Positions 8,435 through 19,271 of a DNA stretch of 64,000 bases are shown here, one piece after another. Source of the stretch: Kaistia soli DSM 19436. Lineage in GTDB: Bacteria; Pseudomonadota; Alphaproteobacteria; Rhizobiales; Kaistiaceae. The position numbers and the translations under genes are program-made. Every line of letters starts with the position of its first letter. Positions within the stretch are counted from its first letter, which is position 1. The stretch spans positions 1,344,615 through 1,408,614 of the forward strand of contig NZ_FQUP01000001.1 of the NCBI RefSeq assembly GCF_900129325.1, given 5' to 3'. Below the pieces are notes generated by a model, which searched no databases, was not told the DNA's origin, and saw only the letters and a list, made by a program, of their open reading frames with translations.

Positions 8435-8744
8435 CAATCGTGGGCCTCTCTCATCCTGCTTCATATCTATGGCAGGTTCCGTCGAGGCTCTGCAACGACG
8501 TCTGAAATGGGTTGCGAAGCCAGACAGAAACCGCCGCATTCCTGCCGTTCGACGTATCTTGCACGCAGCCCAAAGCGAATATCACCCTGAGCTCTGCTAA
8601 TGGGGGTGAGTACGTCCCCGGGCCCGATATCGCACTTCAGCTGTTGCTGGTGTGATCAGCCGGATGCTTCAAGAGTGCCGGTTGGGGAAGGCGAATGTTG
8701 TTGTGCCTGTGTGTACGATCGACGGAAGAGATTAGGCTGAGGGC

Positions 8745-11705
8745 ATGACACAAAACCGAATCTCACTTCGAAAGTACATTCGCTTCCAGCTTGAGCAGAT
8801 GAGCGCATCCAACGAGCACCACCGCTTCGAGGATCTTGCATACGAGTTGTCGAGGCTGCGGATCGCCTCGAACGTGGTCCGTTCCACCGGGCCTGTGCAA
8901 GCAGGCGGCGATCAGGGGCGGGACTTCGAGACGTTCCGCACCTACCTGGGCAGATCTGCGATCGGCAGCAGTTCTTTCGTCGCCAGGGCATCGAACGAGA
9001 CCATCGCCTTCGCATGCACGCTGAACAAGGCGATAGAGAGCAAGGTGAAATCGGACCTTGCGGCGATCTTCGGTGGGGGTGACCGCCCTGACGCGGTAAC
9101 CTATCTCTGCGTGCCTGACATACCTGTCGCAATGCGTCACAAACTGCTGGACCACTGCAGGGACCAGTACGGTGCGAAGCTGACGCTGCTGGATGGGCAG
9201 ACGATCTCGGACATGCTGAGCGATCCCGATACCTTCTGGATCGCTGAGGAATTCCTGTCGGTGCCAGCCGAGCTCTTCCCTCCGGTCGTGGTGGACGAGG
9301 AATACCAAAAGCTGAAGGAGAAGTGGCTGACCGAGCCGCTGGACGGCGGGCCGTCCAATCTGGCCGAGTTCCTCGAGATCAAACGCGGAATGCGCCGAGC
9401 GACGTTCGAGGAGAACGCTAGACCCGATCTCGACGGTTGGATTAGGCGCATGGAGCCTCTGAAAGCAATTCCCGGGCTTCGGCGCAAGGTTGTCTACGAG
9501 ATTGCAGTCGCCACCCTGCGCGGAAAGGGCTTTCTCGATGCGAAGGACGCAGCGCTAGCCGAGTACTTCTCGACCCTACCGATCGAGGCCCCGCTGGAGG
9601 ACATCGAGGACATCGTCTATCTCGCGTCGTACACCTCGTCGGCACGCGCTCACGGCCACCTAAGTCGGGCGAACCACGAGGTGGAAGGCTGGATCGACGA
9701 GGCGGCAAAAGCGGTCGATCGAGGCTTGCAGCTTCATACCGCGCAGTCCAGCCAGTTCCGCCTCCTAAGCCTTCGCGGCCATGTCGAGATCTTGGCCTTC
9801 TGGCACCAAGGTGCGACCGAAGCCGCCGGAAAGGCCATATCGACATGGAACCTTGCTGCGGACATCGCAAAGGAAGACCCGTTAAGCGATGCGTCGACCC
9901 TGGCCGACATAATCATGATCATTGCTCCGGCATTGGGGTCGCGCGGCGACTTCCAGGACCTCACCGACAAGATTGACATGCTGGTGTCGGAGAGGGAAGG
10001 CAAGGTCGCCGCAGGCGACCTGGCGCGTGGCCGCGCAGTGGCATTTGCGGAGTCGGGGCAGTTACTCCTCGCTATCGACCAATTACAAAGAGCCAAGGAG
10101 AATTGGTTCAGTGCCGAGACCCTAAAGGGGTCTGTGCTCGCCATGCTCTTGCTGTCCCAGTGGTACGCGGAACTGCACCTACCACATGCCGCTAGGTACC
10201 ACGCGTCCATGGCGCTTTATACGATCGTGAGGGCTGACGACGACGGGCTTGGCGAGATGTCGGTCCGCAGCGGGTTTGCACTGGCAGCCACGTTCTTCCT
10301 CGCCGGCGAGATGCTGAGCTACCTTTCTTGCGTCGGTCACGTCCTACCGATGCACTCTAGCTACCGCGTGGACCCAGACGACGCCGAGCTGCATGACGAC
10401 TTCGCGCGTGCGATCGCCCAAGGCGCCGTGATCCTCGCAACCGCGTCGGTCGTGGCGCCAGAGATCGTGCAGCGCGCCAGATCGATCGTCGTCGGCTGGA
10501 ACGTGGACGAGGCCTACAAGGACGCCATGGACACTGCGACCAAGTCGCCACCGTGGTTCGGAATGTCCCATGACGAAGTTATTACTAAGCTTCGGGCAGA
10601 GATCGGTCAGGACATCGTCAACGACGTTTTAGGCGAGGTGCGCATCACCTGGAAGGCGTTGGGCCTGAACTGGACGATACTGGCGCCGCGGCGGCTGCGC
10701 AGGCGTGCTGAGGCGCTTGCTGCCACTCTTCAGATCGTCTTGGCCGATCTGGCCAGCACCGATCTGGTTGTGATCCCCTCGGCGGTCGAGCTGCGCTTGC
10801 AATTAGGCAGCGCGCAGTGGGATACGAGACACGAACCCAATAACGACAAGTTGTCGTGGATACTCTCATTGCCCACCGACGACGATAAGTCCAACGATCC
10901 AAAAGTTTTGGATCGCGAAGCACGATCAAGCCTTGCCTTCGTGATGCAGACCCTTCGCCAAGTCTCTGCACTGCCAAATGAAATGTTGATGAAGGCCTTC
11001 GAGGCGCGCATGGAGCGCGGGCTCTGGAAGAAGGTCGGGTTTGTGCGGCCCCCCGGCCACCTCATGGAGGAAGCACGTGCAATGGCAGATCATGAACGCG
11101 ACGCCGGGCCTCTGACGGTTGCCGAGCCGCGTCCGTCGATCGAACCGCTGGAGCACCAGCTAATGGTTGGACCGCAGGGCGACGCGGTGCTCTACTCGAA
11201 GACCAAGGCTATGGAGATGATCGCCAACCGCTACGCCAAACTTGGGCCGTACGCGGCAAGGGTTATGCCGGGGCTGATGCGTGATCCGAAGATCAGAGCA
11301 ATGCTGCAGGCGGAGCACGATAGAGGGATCAGGGATTGGGAGTTGATCACCATCATCCTCAACATCGCGCTGAACCAGTCCGTCAGGGCCGACCCGGCCA
11401 GGGTCAGAGTAGACGGAATGGACGCCTATCGTTCGCAACTGGCAGCGGAGAGCCAAGTGCTCCTGTCAGGCGGCGGTCCACCGTTCGATCCCGCATGGCT
11501 GAAATCGGAGGACTGGCCGATGCACGTGCGGACTTTCATCATGGCCGTGACCAACTCGTGGGGATTGGTCAGCAATCGCCAAACACCAAATATCGACGCG
11601 TTCAGGACGCTACTTGAGAGGCGCTTCCATCACCTTGACGATGATTTGCCCCACGATAACTGGTTCGGGTGGTTCAGTCCTGCCCAGGCCGATCGGGAAC
11701 CGTAG
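8745..11705 (+). CDS. Large protein with Mrr/PD-(D/E)XK-like N-terminus and helical body
   Basis: 986 residues. The N-terminal region (about 1-190) looks like a restriction-endonuclease fold: E29 in HHRFEDLAYEL, then GPVQAGGDQGRDFETF (D56, D60), then strand TIAFACTLNK where Mrr-like enzymes have Q-x-K. The Q-x-K itself is not kept (A-C-T, with K95 three residues later). The next part, through TLLDGQTISDML and FWIAEEFL, may be a helper alpha-beta domain. The remaining 750 or so residues are alpha-helical and repeat-like. No Walker A motif is visible, so it does not look like a STAND NTPase. The start has GAGGG just upstream. The next gene, 145 bases on, is a nucleotidyltransferase fusion; together they look like a two-gene defence module. 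Confidence 0.75.
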   Translation: MTQNRISLRKYIRFQLEQMSASNEHHRFEDLAYELSRLRIASNVVRSTGPVQAGGDQGRDFETFRTYLGRSAIGSSSFVARASNETIAFACTLNKAIESKVKSDLAAIFGGGDRPDAVTYLCVPDIPVAMRHKLLDHCRDQYGAKLTLLDGQTISDMLSDPDTFWIAEEFLSVPAELFPPVVVDEEYQKLKEKWLTEPLDGGPSNLAEFLEIKRGMRRATFEENARPDLDGWIRRMEPLKAIPGLRRKVVYEIAVATLRGKGFLDAKDAALAEYFSTLPIEAPLEDIEDIVYLASYTSSARAHGHLSRANHEVEGWIDEAAKAVDRGLQLHTAQSSQFRLLSLRGHVEILAFWHQGATEAAGKAISTWNLAADIAKEDPLSDASTLADIIMIIAPALGSRGDFQDLTDKIDMLVSEREGKVAAGDLARGRAVAFAESGQLLLAIDQLQRAKENWFSAETLKGSVLAMLLLSQWYAELHLPHAARYHASMALYTIVRADDDGLGEMSVRSGFALAATFFLAGEMLSYLSCVGHVLPMHSSYRVDPDDAELHDDFARAIAQGAVILATASVVAPEIVQRARSIVVGWNVDEAYKDAMDTATKSPPWFGMSHDEVITKLRAEIGQDIVNDVLGEVRITWKALGLNWTILAPRRLRRRAEALAATLQIVLADLASTDLVVIPSAVELRLQLGSAQWDTRHEPNNDKLSWILSLPTDDDKSNDPKVLDREARSSLAFVMQTLRQVSALPNEMLMKAFEARMERGLWKKVGFVRPPGHLMEEARAMADHERDAGPLTVAEPRPSIEPLEHQLMVGPQGDAVLYSKTKAMEMIANRYAKLGPYAARVMPGLMRDPKIRAMLQAEHDRGIRDWELITIILNIALNQSVRADPARVRVDGMDAYRSQLAAESQVLLSGGGPPFDPAWLKSEDWPMHVRTFIMAVTNSWGLVSNRQTPNIDAFRTLLERRFHHLDDDLPHDNWFGWFSPAQADREP

Positions 11706-11850
11706 CGGTCACTCGGCTGCTCTCTTTCTTACGCCGCTTACGATCCGTTCTCGGACATTCCAGCTCGAAGTCACGAACCCCTAAAGCTGCCATTCATCGC
11801 GTTCTAGTCACAGCGACCCCAATGACGGCATTTCCTTCTCGCCCGATGAT

Positions 11851-13398
11851 ATGTATTTCTCGCCTATACGACGGGGGGGCAAATTGGGGGATTGGACGCC
11901 AGAAGCGGCGGAGGCGATTGATCTCTGCGCACAATGGGCACGCGAGGTTAGCGCTGCTATCCCATGCGATATCTATCTGTTTGGAAGCGCGATCTACCAG
12001 GACGGTGATCAGTTCGACGCCCAACTGAGTGATCTTGATATCGTCGTCAAGTTTCATTGTGATTTGGAAGCGACCGAGCGTGTCGAGAGGATGATGGAAC
12101 TTCGCACGCATAAAATGATGCTTGAGCTTCGAATGGTCCCTTGCCTTCACCGCACGAATTGTGCGGATCCGGGGGTCAGTGTCCTTCCGATCACTTCCCT
12201 CGAGCTTCTGGCGAATGTCCACAAGGGCAAATCGCGGCACTTCTTCACCAGGAATATTTTTCTCGATCTGCTTTCGGACGTGGAAACAATCAGCATCCCA
12301 ACTGCAGGGACCAGTTCGTTATCGGATGAAGCACGACAAGCACTCGAGTTCGCCCAGGAGGTGCGGAACCACTTCTTGGCTGTCAGCGCAAATGGGACCG
12401 GTGGCTTGGCGCCGTTCGACGGGCCAGATCCGCTGCCAAAAGCGCTTGCCCGAACGGCTGCTCAACTTGTGCCGGAAGTCGAAGCCGGTAGCTGGTATGA
12501 CACGCGATACGGTCTTGAATATCTCTGGGACGAACTGTCTCGGCGCCGAAGTGAGTCGCCGGAACTCCTCCAGTTGCATCGAAAAATTTCAATTAGGCGG
12601 GGCGGACGCGGTCATCGCCAAAAGCTCTCCGATGTCGACCAATTACTGCTCGCCGAGATCCTTTACGACCGTGCCGCGGCGTCCCCCGTGGTTCCCTTGG
12701 TCACATGGGAAATCCGCTTCGGCGGCATCTCGCCGAGTCGTAGCGAACGCGACCGGCTAGTCGAAGCGTTGCGGAGCCTAGTTCCGGATGCGGAGATTTT
12801 GGGCGTGTTTGATGGCAGCATCGTCATCAGACTGCGGAGTTCGAAGCGCAGCTTCTTGACGATGCGTCGGCTTCACGAACTCCAAGCTTTGCCGGAGTTT
12901 TTTACGGTCGAAGATGTTGATCTTGTCGATCTGGAAAGCGGAGAGGGAATCGCTGGGTTCAGCACGCATGGAGTCATTGATCGCATCGCCGAACGCATTT
13001 CAGAATGGCGTCCTCAATCCGGCGATCATGCAGCAGAGTCGGAGGCCAGTCTCGCGCGTTGGCTGAGTGATTGGCTGAGTGAGGATGACCAGCTTTCCAC
13101 GGCCAAATTGGTTCGCGAAGCACTGATTGGCGACTTTGAACGCCCGCTGCGCGCGGACATTCTTCTGCAGTTTGCTCAGCCGGGCGGTGAACAGCGCGTG
13201 GTGATCGAGCTAGTGCGCGTAAGGCATCGGAGAGATTTCTTCTCCCAGCTTGGACGCGCGCAGGGACTTGGCGTCCCGACAATTCTCGTGTTGGTGGGTG
13301 AGCCCGGCAAGCTCTCCAGTCTTGCGCCTGACATCCGCGCTCTTACGGCCCTCGACGCCAAAATTAGGGTCGTGCCGGTCGCTCTAGATAATGGCTAG
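11851..13398 (+). CDS. Nucleotidyltransferase fused to a middle alpha-beta domain and a nuclease-like C-terminus
   Basis: 515 residues. The N-terminal Pol-beta-type nucleotidyltransferase has LFGSA (43-47) and SDLDIVV with D61 and D63, the usual two metal aspartates after the GS motif; LELRMV (E92) may give the third acid. Residues about 150-240 are helical. Residues about 290-365 form a small alpha-beta domain (SIVIRLRSSKRSF and FFTVEDVDLVDL) like the adaptor domains of conflict proteins. The end (about 430-515) has the order of a PD-(D/E)XK nuclease: ADILLQF (D436) then VVIELVRV (E453), but the expected lysine two residues after the acid is replaced by V455. There is no clear ribosome-binding site and no alternative start. 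It may modify a target or make a signal acting with the 986-aa protein. Confidence 0.78.
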   Translation: MYFSPIRRGGKLGDWTPEAAEAIDLCAQWAREVSAAIPCDIYLFGSAIYQDGDQFDAQLSDLDIVVKFHCDLEATERVERMMELRTHKMMLELRMVPCLHRTNCADPGVSVLPITSLELLANVHKGKSRHFFTRNIFLDLLSDVETISIPTAGTSSLSDEARQALEFAQEVRNHFLAVSANGTGGLAPFDGPDPLPKALARTAAQLVPEVEAGSWYDTRYGLEYLWDELSRRRSESPELLQLHRKISIRRGGRGHRQKLSDVDQLLLAEILYDRAAASPVVPLVTWEIRFGGISPSRSERDRLVEALRSLVPDAEILGVFDGSIVIRLRSSKRSFLTMRRLHELQALPEFFTVEDVDLVDLESGEGIAGFSTHGVIDRIAERISEWRPQSGDHAAESEASLARWLSDWLSEDDQLSTAKLVREALIGDFERPLRADILLQFAQPGGEQRVVIELVRVRHRRDFFSQLGRAQGLGVPTILVLVGEPGKLSSLAPDIRALTALDAKIRVVPVALDNG

Positions 13399-17535: not shown

Positions 17536-17623
17536 CCGAGCCATGCGGCGGGCGATCGAGGAAGCCGGCGTCGAGTTCATCGCTGAGAACGGCGGCGGGG
17601 CGGGAGTAAGATTAAGTAAATGA
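17536..17623 (+). pseudogene. C-terminal remnant of an XRE-type transcriptional regulator
   Basis: The frame encodes RAMRRAIEEAGVEFIAENGG then GAGVRLSK and a stop. From family knowledge this is the last 28 residues of small rhizobial XRE regulators (about 80-100 residues), whose HTH part is missing here: upstream in this frame there is no helix-turn-helix. The stop codon overlaps the ATG of the AbiV-like gene (ATGA), so the intact regulator was probably translationally coupled to it. Confidence 0.65.
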
Positions 17624-18396
17624 ATGGACACGCCCGCGACCCTCTACATGAGATAACGATAAATGTTGAGAGCCTTCTTCGTAGCTCAAGAACAATACAT
17701 GACAGTGGTAATTATGCCCTTTCTACGCACGTTTCTATATTGTGTATCGAAGAGAGCGCTAAATATTTATTAGTGTATTGCAAAGCGCATTTGCCGCATG
17801 ATGTCTTCAGAAAACGATTTCAGCACGTCCACAAGCATGCGGTGTCAAATGCCCCGTGGTTTCTTGCCGGCCAATTCTCCGTGGCATATATGCTTCATAT
17901 AACCGGAGAAATGGTCGACAAGAGTGAAAGTATCCGCGACCAAATGAGAGGATTGTCTCAGGCTGTTACCGAATACATTTTTCAGAACGACCCACAGATC
18001 GTTGCTGAGGCTATTGCTAGCGTTCTTGCGCCGAAAGATGCCGAAACCGATCGACAGTACAGACAATTTCATGACGAACGTGAGAAGGATCGCGTTAATT
18101 CTATATACGTTGACGTATCTGACGATCTAGTTGTCACGGCATCACCCAGAAGCTTCGGTCGCGCAAAATCGAAAGAATACGTCGAGCGCGCAGAACTGTG
18201 TGCGGCGCTCATTCAGTTCCTCGCCAACCCTACAGCAGACATAGTGGAGTTCGTCGATAGATTACCTCCGAAAGAGCGACTAAGAATCAAAAGAGAAGGA
18301 CTGAGGAATGCAAGAACGCTAATCGCACGGCTACGGGCTGCGGGAGCAACGCCTGGGACCGAAGGCAGCGCAGCGAACGAAGGGAACAAGTCGTGA
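17620..18396 (+). CDS. AbiV-like abortive infection protein (HEPN-type)
   Basis: 258 residues. SGNYALSTHVSILCIEESAK then YLLVYCKAHLPHDVF and a His-rich FQHVHKHAVSNA match the AbiV family pattern (HEPN superfamily: helical, with an acidic residue followed by a lysine in the E-E-S-A-K helix). AbiV of Lactococcus blocks phage protein synthesis; whether this homologue acts alike is unknown. The gene is visibly AT-richer than the core genome here, implying recent transfer. It starts on the stop of a decayed XRE regulator and its own stop overlaps the GTG start of the AbiTii-like gene, so the two form a coupled operon. Confidence 0.75.
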   Translation: MNGHARDPLHEITINVESLLRSSRTIHDSGNYALSTHVSILCIEESAKYLLVYCKAHLPHDVFRKRFQHVHKHAVSNAPWFLAGQFSVAYMLHITGEMVDKSESIRDQMRGLSQAVTEYIFQNDPQIVAEAIASVLAPKDAETDRQYRQFHDEREKDRVNSIYVDVSDDLVVTASPRSFGRAKSKEYVERAELCAALIQFLANPTADIVEFVDRLPPKERLRIKREGLRNARTLIARLRAAGATPGTEGSAANEGNKS

Positions 18397-19271
18397 CGGG
18401 GCTAATTGAAGAACTTCAACGTCAAGCACTTGATCCCGCTGTAGCGGTGAGCACGCTCTTGAGGAGGGTTAAGCTGATCGCTCTAAAGCTTGGCTTGCCG
18501 GATTTGCAAGAATGGGTCGAACTGGAGTTGAACGGCTATGATGGCCGGCCAGTGCCCAAATACCGAGTGCTAAACGGACAACCTAAAGCGCTCAATCCTT
18601 ACAATGGCTGGATACCAATAATGGGCCCGCCAGACCTAATTCGAAAGCTCTCTGAACGCGACGTGGGACAGTCGCTGAGCTCTTTGGAAGCCATTGCAAG
18701 CTCAAACTCCGGAGAGCGGGTCACGATTCCGTTCTCACCCGAGACGATTGCTTGGCTGAACGAGCGTATGGATGTTCCCTTTGCAAGAATATCGCTCCAC
18801 TGTCCCGCGTCCTCCGTCGTGGGGATCATAGACTGTGTTAGGAATCTTGTTCTGGATTGGTCTATCGAAATGGAAAAGGCGGGCATAACGGGAGAGGGTC
18901 TGTCCTTTTCTCCGGAGGAGAAGAAGGCTGCACACTCTCAATCGACGACCGTACACATTGGCACGATCGGGTCTTTTGCGGGGAACATCGGATCAGGAAA
19001 CAAATCGGGTGACATTTCGATGTCGTCTGTCAATGTCGAGGCAATCAAGAGCCTCATCGGGCAGACAAGATCAAATATGGCGTCGTTGGATGGCGTTGAC
19101 CATTCTGCCGTTATCGCGCATCTGGCCGAGCTTGAGGATGAGGTGGCCAAGCCCAGTCCCAGCGCCAGCCGTGTTCGAGCGACGCTTTCGGCGCTTCAAG
19201 GACTACTCACTGAAGTCTCAGGCAATCTCATTGCGGCTGGCATCATCGCCCTCATACAGCAGATTTCTTGA
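18393..19271 (+). CDS. AbiTii-domain protein
   Basis: 292 residues with a GTG start. The N-terminal part (about 1-185) matches the AbiTii domain: LIEELQRQALDPAVAVSTLL, LKLGLPDLQEWVELELNGY and NPYNGWIP. A Gly/Ser-rich link (TIGSFAGNIGSGNKSGD, about 195-215) leads to a C-terminal helical segment ending in a hydrophobic stretch (LIAAGIIALIQQ). AbiTii is known as a domain of abortive-infection proteins, but its action is poorly understood. Coupling to an AbiV-like gene suggests the two act as one system. Confidence 0.8.
   Translation: MTGLIEELQRQALDPAVAVSTLLRRVKLIALKLGLPDLQEWVELELNGYDGRPVPKYRVLNGQPKALNPYNGWIPIMGPPDLIRKLSERDVGQSLSSLEAIASSNSGERVTIPFSPETIAWLNERMDVPFARISLHCPASSVVGIIDCVRNLVLDWSIEMEKAGITGEGLSFSPEEKKAAHSQSTTVHIGTIGSFAGNIGSGNKSGDISMSSVNVEAIKSLIGQTRSNMASLDGVDHSAVIAHLAELEDEVAKPSPSASRVRATLSALQGLLTEVSGNLIAAGIIALIQQIS

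Follow-up and report, generated by a model that had tools for sequence, protein, structure and literature searches.

A proposed single-gene defence protein of Kaistia soli with a putative, divergent Mrr-like N-terminus and an alpha-solenoid body

The type IV restriction enzyme Mrr has motifs that include a loop with the catalytic aspartate and a strand bearing QxK. Among described conflict systems, the TPR - GreA/B-C - PIN system (Kaur and colleagues 2021; PF20698) stands alone and occurs with 13 kinds of exchangeable N-terminal effector (PMC8195603), and in the E. coli set of DefensePredictor (PMC13092281) PD-(D/E)XK domains are reported from 13 systems that were validated. The gene compared with these systems here, gene A, lies in a stretch of 64,000 nucleotides of Kaistia soli DSM 19436 (contig NZ_FQUP01000001.1, positions 1,344,615 to 1,408,614 of the forward strand; hereafter the window), which sits on a 1.9 Mb contig within a 5.2 Mb assembly.

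Gene A (986 aa) is followed on the same strand, after 145 bases, by gene B (515 aa). An original prediction, made from the sequence alone, had placed both open reading frames (ORFs) correctly and had joined them into a two-gene defence module. We propose instead, with moderate confidence, that gene A alone would be a complete single-gene immune protein without a recognised nucleoside triphosphatase (NTPase), in which a solenoid senses infection and an N-terminal Mrr-like domain cuts DNA. The two genes, in positions of the window, are as follows.

8745..11705, + strand: gene A, ORF of 986 aa, in which a Mrr-like N-terminus is followed by an alpha-solenoid, then a small beta domain and C-terminal helices; proposed to act in defence on its own
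11851..13398, + strand: gene B, ORF of 515 aa with a PF20697 nucleotidyltransferase and a C-terminal region without an assigned family; separate from A

Architecture and spread of gene A

Gene A can be regarded as a real gene, since 324 of the 497 base differences from the nearest copy found, on an Agrobacterium plasmid (protein identity 85.2%), fall at third codon positions and the ratio of nonsynonymous to synonymous change (dN/dS) is 0.117. It evolves as a protein, under purifying selection, and both A and B have relatives far beyond chance. A search of the genome collection returned 118 relatives of A from bacteria and archaea, Asgard lineages included; the patterns used contained A residues 48-66, and only relatives with the N-terminal motif could be found. 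Loci were taken from the best 80 of these 118, whose record titles name Proteobacteria, Actinobacteria, Chloroflexi, Bacteroidota, Acidobacteria and archaea, the last with five loci (L029, L032, L043, L051 and L092). The gene is also present on 11 plasmid records, four of them typed conjugative, and the plasmid records seen annotate proteins of the family mostly as "hypothetical protein". Its distribution is patchy, with one occurrence among 100 near relatives and none among 298 other genomes of the phylum sample; in that single near relative the gene is interrupted, its ends lying about 1.3 kb apart around an unrelated insert with nine stops.

Together, the best 80 relatives, the 11 plasmids and one further genome provide 92 A loci, near-duplicates included. 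Flanking sequence of at least 3 kb is available to either side of the gene at 70 of them, to a single side at 16 and to neither at 6, and eight contain some N. In ten of the 92 the homologue is split over at least two ORFs (L010, L021, L054, L067, L075, L088, L091, L092, L097 and L100), through frameshift, insertion or assembly error, and at L033 a second, partial A-like ORF stands in tandem.

The protein has no match in Pfam, PADLOC or NCBIfam at E <= 1, and blastn with the window gene and a Rahnella gene found nothing in 20,395 E. coli records. In the literature searched, which covered few subscription papers and no supplements, six accessions of the family occurred in no paper, and keyword searches returned no description of it. 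Gene A represents a family that is new and widely spread, and that probably joins effector and sensor in one gene, itself an already known style. The earlier supposition that the system was undescribed holds for A alone, as a large family without a Pfam, NCBIfam or PADLOC match; B belongs to the known Pfam family PF20697. A viral origin was considered and set aside, as no relative of A or B could be confirmed among viral contigs and phage records yielded none.

An AlphaFold2 model of A, computed with 53 sequences (the window protein and those of 52 of the 80 loci, with near-duplicate, short and split ones omitted), has a predicted local distance difference test score (pLDDT) of 89.6 and a predicted template modelling score (pTM) of 0.81. 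Helices and strands alternate over aa 1-171, only successive helices follow over aa 184-620, a strand-strand-helix-strand-strand-strand unit occupies aa 631-709, and aa 719-960 are again helical. When the model was compared with the Protein Data Bank (PDB) by Foldseek, the top matches were TPR proteins (LGN, E 3.5e-4), and helical-repeat proteins made up the best 50 of 1282 matches, which supports the predicted solenoid and is uninformative on the first domain. Against viral structures, helical-repeat proteins likewise filled the best 50 of 325 matches, none of them at E <= 0.001. No NTPase family was matched in A at E <= 1 or was among the 14 families matched by 27 bodies, and profile scans of A and the same 27 bodies recognised no DNA-binding domain. 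The parts of A can be summarized as follows.

8745..9293, + strand: aa 1-183, domain read as a divergent Mrr-like nuclease and proposed to be the DNase effector (alpha/beta in the model; Mrr_cat alignment; Cap4-type swap in five relatives)
8886..8924, + strand: aa 48-60, motif TGPVQAGGDQGRD, with D56 and D60 in 40/40 and aligned with the SGDGGVD type loop of Mrr
9042..9044, + strand: K100, putative catalytic lysine, in 40/40 and outside the search patterns
9294..10604, + strand: aa 184-620, alpha-solenoid, proposed sensor or scaffold (model; top PDB matches TPR proteins)
10620..10874, + strand: aa 626-710, small beta domain (model; no GreA profile similarity)
10899..11624, + strand: aa 719-960, C-terminal helices, in which the pair D864-W865 is invariant (model and alignment)

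The N-terminal domain was aligned over 40 sequences, namely the window protein and those of 39 of the 80 loci, and in all 40 the residues E29, T48, G49, G55, D56, D60, K100 and D150 are invariant; conservation at residues 48-66 is inflated by their use as a search pattern, outside of which lie E29, K100 and D150. Comparison by hhalign with 21 Mrr_cat segments, drawn from 31 places listed, gave an alignment of 105 columns in register over nearly the whole Mrr domain (E 0.0075), in which the FE helix, GGDxGxD at the catalytic-aspartate loop, the QxK-bearing strand and a closing DGxxLAxxL all correspond and D60 lines up with the catalytic aspartate of Mrr. Its score was reached by 1 of 300 column-shuffled alignments, and the reversed alignment scored about half as high. 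In the same test a Mrr-like domain of another system reached a probability of 89%, and neither the Cap4-type domain of A relatives (P 0.44) nor the beta domain of A (P 0.26) gave a match. The N-terminus of A is read here as a divergent Mrr-like nuclease, of which the lysine may be K100, present in 40/40 at a non-canonical place; it is preferred to K95 because the latter occurs in only 24/40.

The N-terminal domain has been exchanged in some relatives. Five proteins keep the body of A and have some 300 first residues unlike those of A: three from Bacteroidota plasmid loci (L015, L016 and L017), which are alike in this domain, and two from genomes in the class of a Larkinella genome (L115 and L116), which resemble them by eye. 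The Pfam family Cap4_nuclease is matched above its cut-off by L016 (E 4.9e-8) and L116 (E 5.5e-9) and below it by L017 (E 2.2e-5) and L115 (E 5.5e-5), with no match in L015. Swapped domains account for 3 of the 11 plasmid loci. A search of 345 genomes gave three strong matches to the body, two of them with a swapped domain, the match of L116 covering only 611 of 791 positions; five weak body matches in Bacteroidota-type genomes (E 6e-6 to 9.8e-4) involved repeat stretches only and were dropped. Other Bacteroidota relatives from the genome-collection search bear the A-type N-terminus. Such a pattern, in which the body stays constant and the nucleases can be exchanged, is what one would expect of a sensor plus effector.

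The setting of the gene is rich in defence functions. Neighbours were defined as the 289 ORFs of 150-700 aa that reach within 3.5 kb of A at up to 74 loci, and 145 of them were scanned. As a control, 29 stretches from five genomes supplied 173 ORFs, of which 138 were scanned. At E <= 1e-5, PADLOC matched 299 models in the 145 neighbour ORFs vs 24 in the 138 control ORFs, figures that count models rather than proteins, with several models per system, and that are set against a narrow control of five genomes. Annotated neighbours on plasmids include Shedu, AbiEi/AbiEii, ABC-three-component and restriction genes, and the commonest Pfam family near A is the phage integrase (5 of the 145). The earlier description of the surroundings as a defence island holds for A.

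No fixed partner gene accompanies A, the most frequent neighbour family being an ORF of 335-393 aa directly 3' of it at 6 of the 92 loci. These six are actinobacterial (L055, L068, L069, L073, L079 and L099), and the ORF starts from -75 to +46 bases from the end of A, perhaps as a translationally coupled accessory gene. Its L055 copy, in which CxC and CxxC motifs are seen, matched nothing in Pfam at E <= 0.1, and its L069 copy has a sub-threshold zinc-finger match only.

A single-gene reading and its rivals

The proposal that A acts alone is based on the modelled architecture, conservation, stand-alone spread, N-terminal exchange and defence-rich setting. In the scheme envisaged, for which we infer the DNA cutting, its trigger and its outcome, the body of A (aa 184-975, the alpha-solenoid and the C-terminal part) would hold the N-terminal nuclease in check until it binds a molecule associated with infection, for which a phage protein or nucleoprotein is the most likely candidate. 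This binding, probably accompanied by oligomerisation, would then free or align the Mrr-like domain, which could cut either invader DNA alone or all the DNA of the cell, as in abortive infection. Activation by binding or oligomerisation alone is envisaged because no NTPase is recognised in the protein.

Several observations weigh against this proposal. Besides the motif-bound search and the model-based neighbourhood counts given above, the hhalign probability of the Mrr_cat match is just 5%, no canonical ExK or QxK was seen in the N-terminus, and this domain gave no alignment to the Mrr-like N-terminus found in another system, or to the Cap4-type domain that relatives of A carry. Pfam gave no convincing match in any of the 40 N-terminal domains scanned, nor did the NCBIfam models or PDB sequences for the N-terminus of A, and no nuclease is among the best 50 of the 1282 PDB fold matches. 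The "restriction-nuclease-like N-terminus" of the original prediction is favoured to a small degree by the Mrr alignment and finds no backing in Pfam.

A broader version of the same idea, which we put forward tentatively, is that a large family, with members in alphaproteobacteria, in actinobacteria and as far afield as Asgard archaea, might consist of NTPase-less, single-gene immune receptors. The solenoid body would be constant and would sense infection, and it would set off one or the other of two nuclease domains that are unlike each other. If true, a family found across many bacterial phyla and archaea would be a one-gene defence module, and one-gene systems are easily moved and tested. 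Comparison of relatives could then be used to ask what the solenoid senses, the sensor being constant and the nuclease exchangeable.

The main rival sees in A a restriction enzyme of a type IV-like sort on constant patrol, cutting DNA with particular modifications or ends, with the solenoid as a scaffold and with neither a trigger nor cell death. The best alignment of the N-terminus is indeed with Mrr, and A stands alone without a fixed partner; the exchange with a Cap4-type nuclease, however, better fits triggered effectors, and no DNA-binding domain is recognised in A; we consider this explanation unlikely. It is also conceivable, with a lower probability still, that A targets plasmids or other mobile elements, or is an addiction or interference gene of theirs, rather than being directed against phages. 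Its presence on the 11 plasmid records, four typed conjugative, and its movement as a single gene would agree with such a role, whereas its loci have no antitoxin-like partner in common and its neighbours are rich in phage-defence models.

A third possibility concerns gene B. A profile of B-type proteins detected no B-type nucleotidyltransferase at any of the 92 A loci, even at E <= 1; the same profile recovers two B proteins outside its build (L108 and L109), though both resemble one that was used. None of the seven B loci (L018, L019, L020, L022, L023, L108 and L109) has A nearby, one more plasmid record with B (H3) lying outside these seven, and no nucleotidyltransferase family is among 25 of the 111 Pfam families matched by the neighbour ORFs of A, 145/289 of which were scanned. 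The DNA shared with the Agrobacterium plasmid forms a single block at 8691-11672 (83% identity) that corresponds to A minus its last 33 bases, plus 54 bases upstream; on that plasmid, A is followed on the opposite strand by a different nucleotidyltransferase with a HEPN domain (NTase-HEPN). A local two-gene system of this strain, in which a nucleotidyltransferase signal or mark controls A, could be argued from the adjacency of A and B on one strand, 145 bases apart, and from the NTase-HEPN gene next to the nearest A copy, but that gene differs in kind and lies on the opposite strand, 0/92 and 0/7 loci are paired and the shared DNA ends at gene A, so that such a system is very improbable. Because homologues of A and B are not found together, which is the outcome that the original prediction had named as refuting it, the idea of a two-gene module is rejected. 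The two genes are coincidental neighbours, carried independently of each other as cargo in one defence island, and a false lead is removed, the adjoining nucleotidyltransferase being no part of the A system.

Gene B and the surrounding island

Gene B is a clear member of PF20697 ("NTase-conflict"), which it matches over aa 25-276 with 384.6 bits (cut-off 24, E 2.9e-115), and its GS and DxD residues are present in all five aligned proteins. It is accordingly classed by sequence as a nucleotidyltransferase of the Pol-beta superfamily with predicted transfer activity. The family is rare, occurring in 2 of 384 other genomes of the class sample and 2 of 396 of the order sample, and neither its accession nor its name appeared in any paper of the literature searched. 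The two parts of B are as follows.

11923..12678, + strand: aa 25-276, NTase-conflict domain, which keeps the GS and DxD residues (Pfam match; alignment)
12679..13395, + strand: aa 277-515, C-terminal region not assigned to any family (profile scans, alignments)

The original prediction had treated B as a fusion of a nucleotidyltransferase to a PD-(D/E)XK nuclease, and the first half of this claim stands. The nuclease end is unsupported, as profile scans gave the C-terminus no convincing family match, it has no similarity to Mrr (131 of 150 shuffles score equally high), and its putative D...ExK place (D436, E453-x-V455) has valine where lysine is expected. Outside its own genome, this region has just one match, of 59 residues with an internal stop (E 9.6e-4), and a single-sequence structure model of B was unusable (pLDDT 42.7). 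The regions after the nucleotidyltransferase vary among relatives of B, and the C-terminus of B aligns poorly with theirs. Three relatives (L108, L109 and L020) have in common a C-terminal region without a Pfam match and unlike that of B, and the corresponding region at L018 is HNH-like by eye, with no Pfam match. At L023 (1361-4926), a short stand-alone PF20697 gene directly follows a TIR-AAA-TPR gene, possibly as a two-gene system of another kind.

Profile scans with Pfam and PADLOC show that the island around A and B also encodes DUF5677, SNase, SRAP, AbiV-HEPN and AbiTii proteins, and the DUF5677, AbiV and AbiTii neighbours named earlier are thereby confirmed. AbiV, the HEPN gene recognised in the island, begins about 4.2 kb past B. 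This AbiV-type HEPN gene (17620-18396, + strand) and the AbiTii gene (18393-19271, + strand) overlap by 4 bases, which suggests an AbiV-AbiTii operon. Beyond about 21 kb, ORFs of ordinary chromosomal appearance follow (sulfatase, sensor kinases, dicarboxylate transporter), 7 of the 10 scanned having a match. Between A and B there is one hairpin, at 11704-11721, which says nothing on a terminator because shuffled sequences give more hits (mean 4.0) than the region itself (2 hits), and no promoter was found there with a search pattern that may not suit this organism.

Comparison with described systems

As a proposed single-gene immune protein, A can be set beside several described systems. The E. 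coli systems of DefensePredictor could not be linked to A, the blastn search of E. coli being negative. Gene B, like MntA of the type VII toxin-antitoxin system MntA/HepT (PMC7641770), belongs to the Pol-beta nucleotidyltransferase superfamily; unlike MntA, it scores 15.1 bits against an MntA cut-off of 60 and has no adjacent HEPN gene. A differs from the immune receptors of the STAND and Avs type in having no recognisable NTPase domain at E <= 1. The Cap4 nuclease (PF14130) of cyclic-oligonucleotide-based antiphage signalling systems (CBASS) fills the N-terminal position in four relatives of A (L016, L017, L115 and L116), whereas Cap4 is not matched by A itself, nor was a SAVED or CD-NTase partner recognised; SMODS and SAVED domains are absent from both A and B in Pfam scans, and the A-B pair is not conserved. 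With the Mrr-type nucleases (PF04471), A has in common the 105 columns aligned in register, and it differs from them in lying below Pfam detection, in lacking the canonical QxK and in carrying a solenoid body of 800 aa.

Membership of the TPR - GreA/B-C - PIN system is rejected by sequence, the PIN, GreA and body profiles all being negative. PIN (PF20698) is matched neither in A at E <= 1 nor among the 14 families from 27 bodies, and the C-terminus of the model is helical. The body of A aligned by hhalign with four members of that system reached a probability of 0.1, and its beta domain aligned with GreA one of 0.05, with no GreA domain match in A; as a positive control, GreA matches the TPR - GreA/B-C - PIN system at E 0.0015. 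It is possible that the small beta domain of A is structurally similar to the GreA fold. In its stand-alone character, swappable N-terminal effectors (a REase among those of that system), constant helical-repeat body and occurrence in both bacteria and archaea, A resembles the system as set out in PMC8195603, and TPR - GreA/B-C - PIN is the closest described architecture to A.

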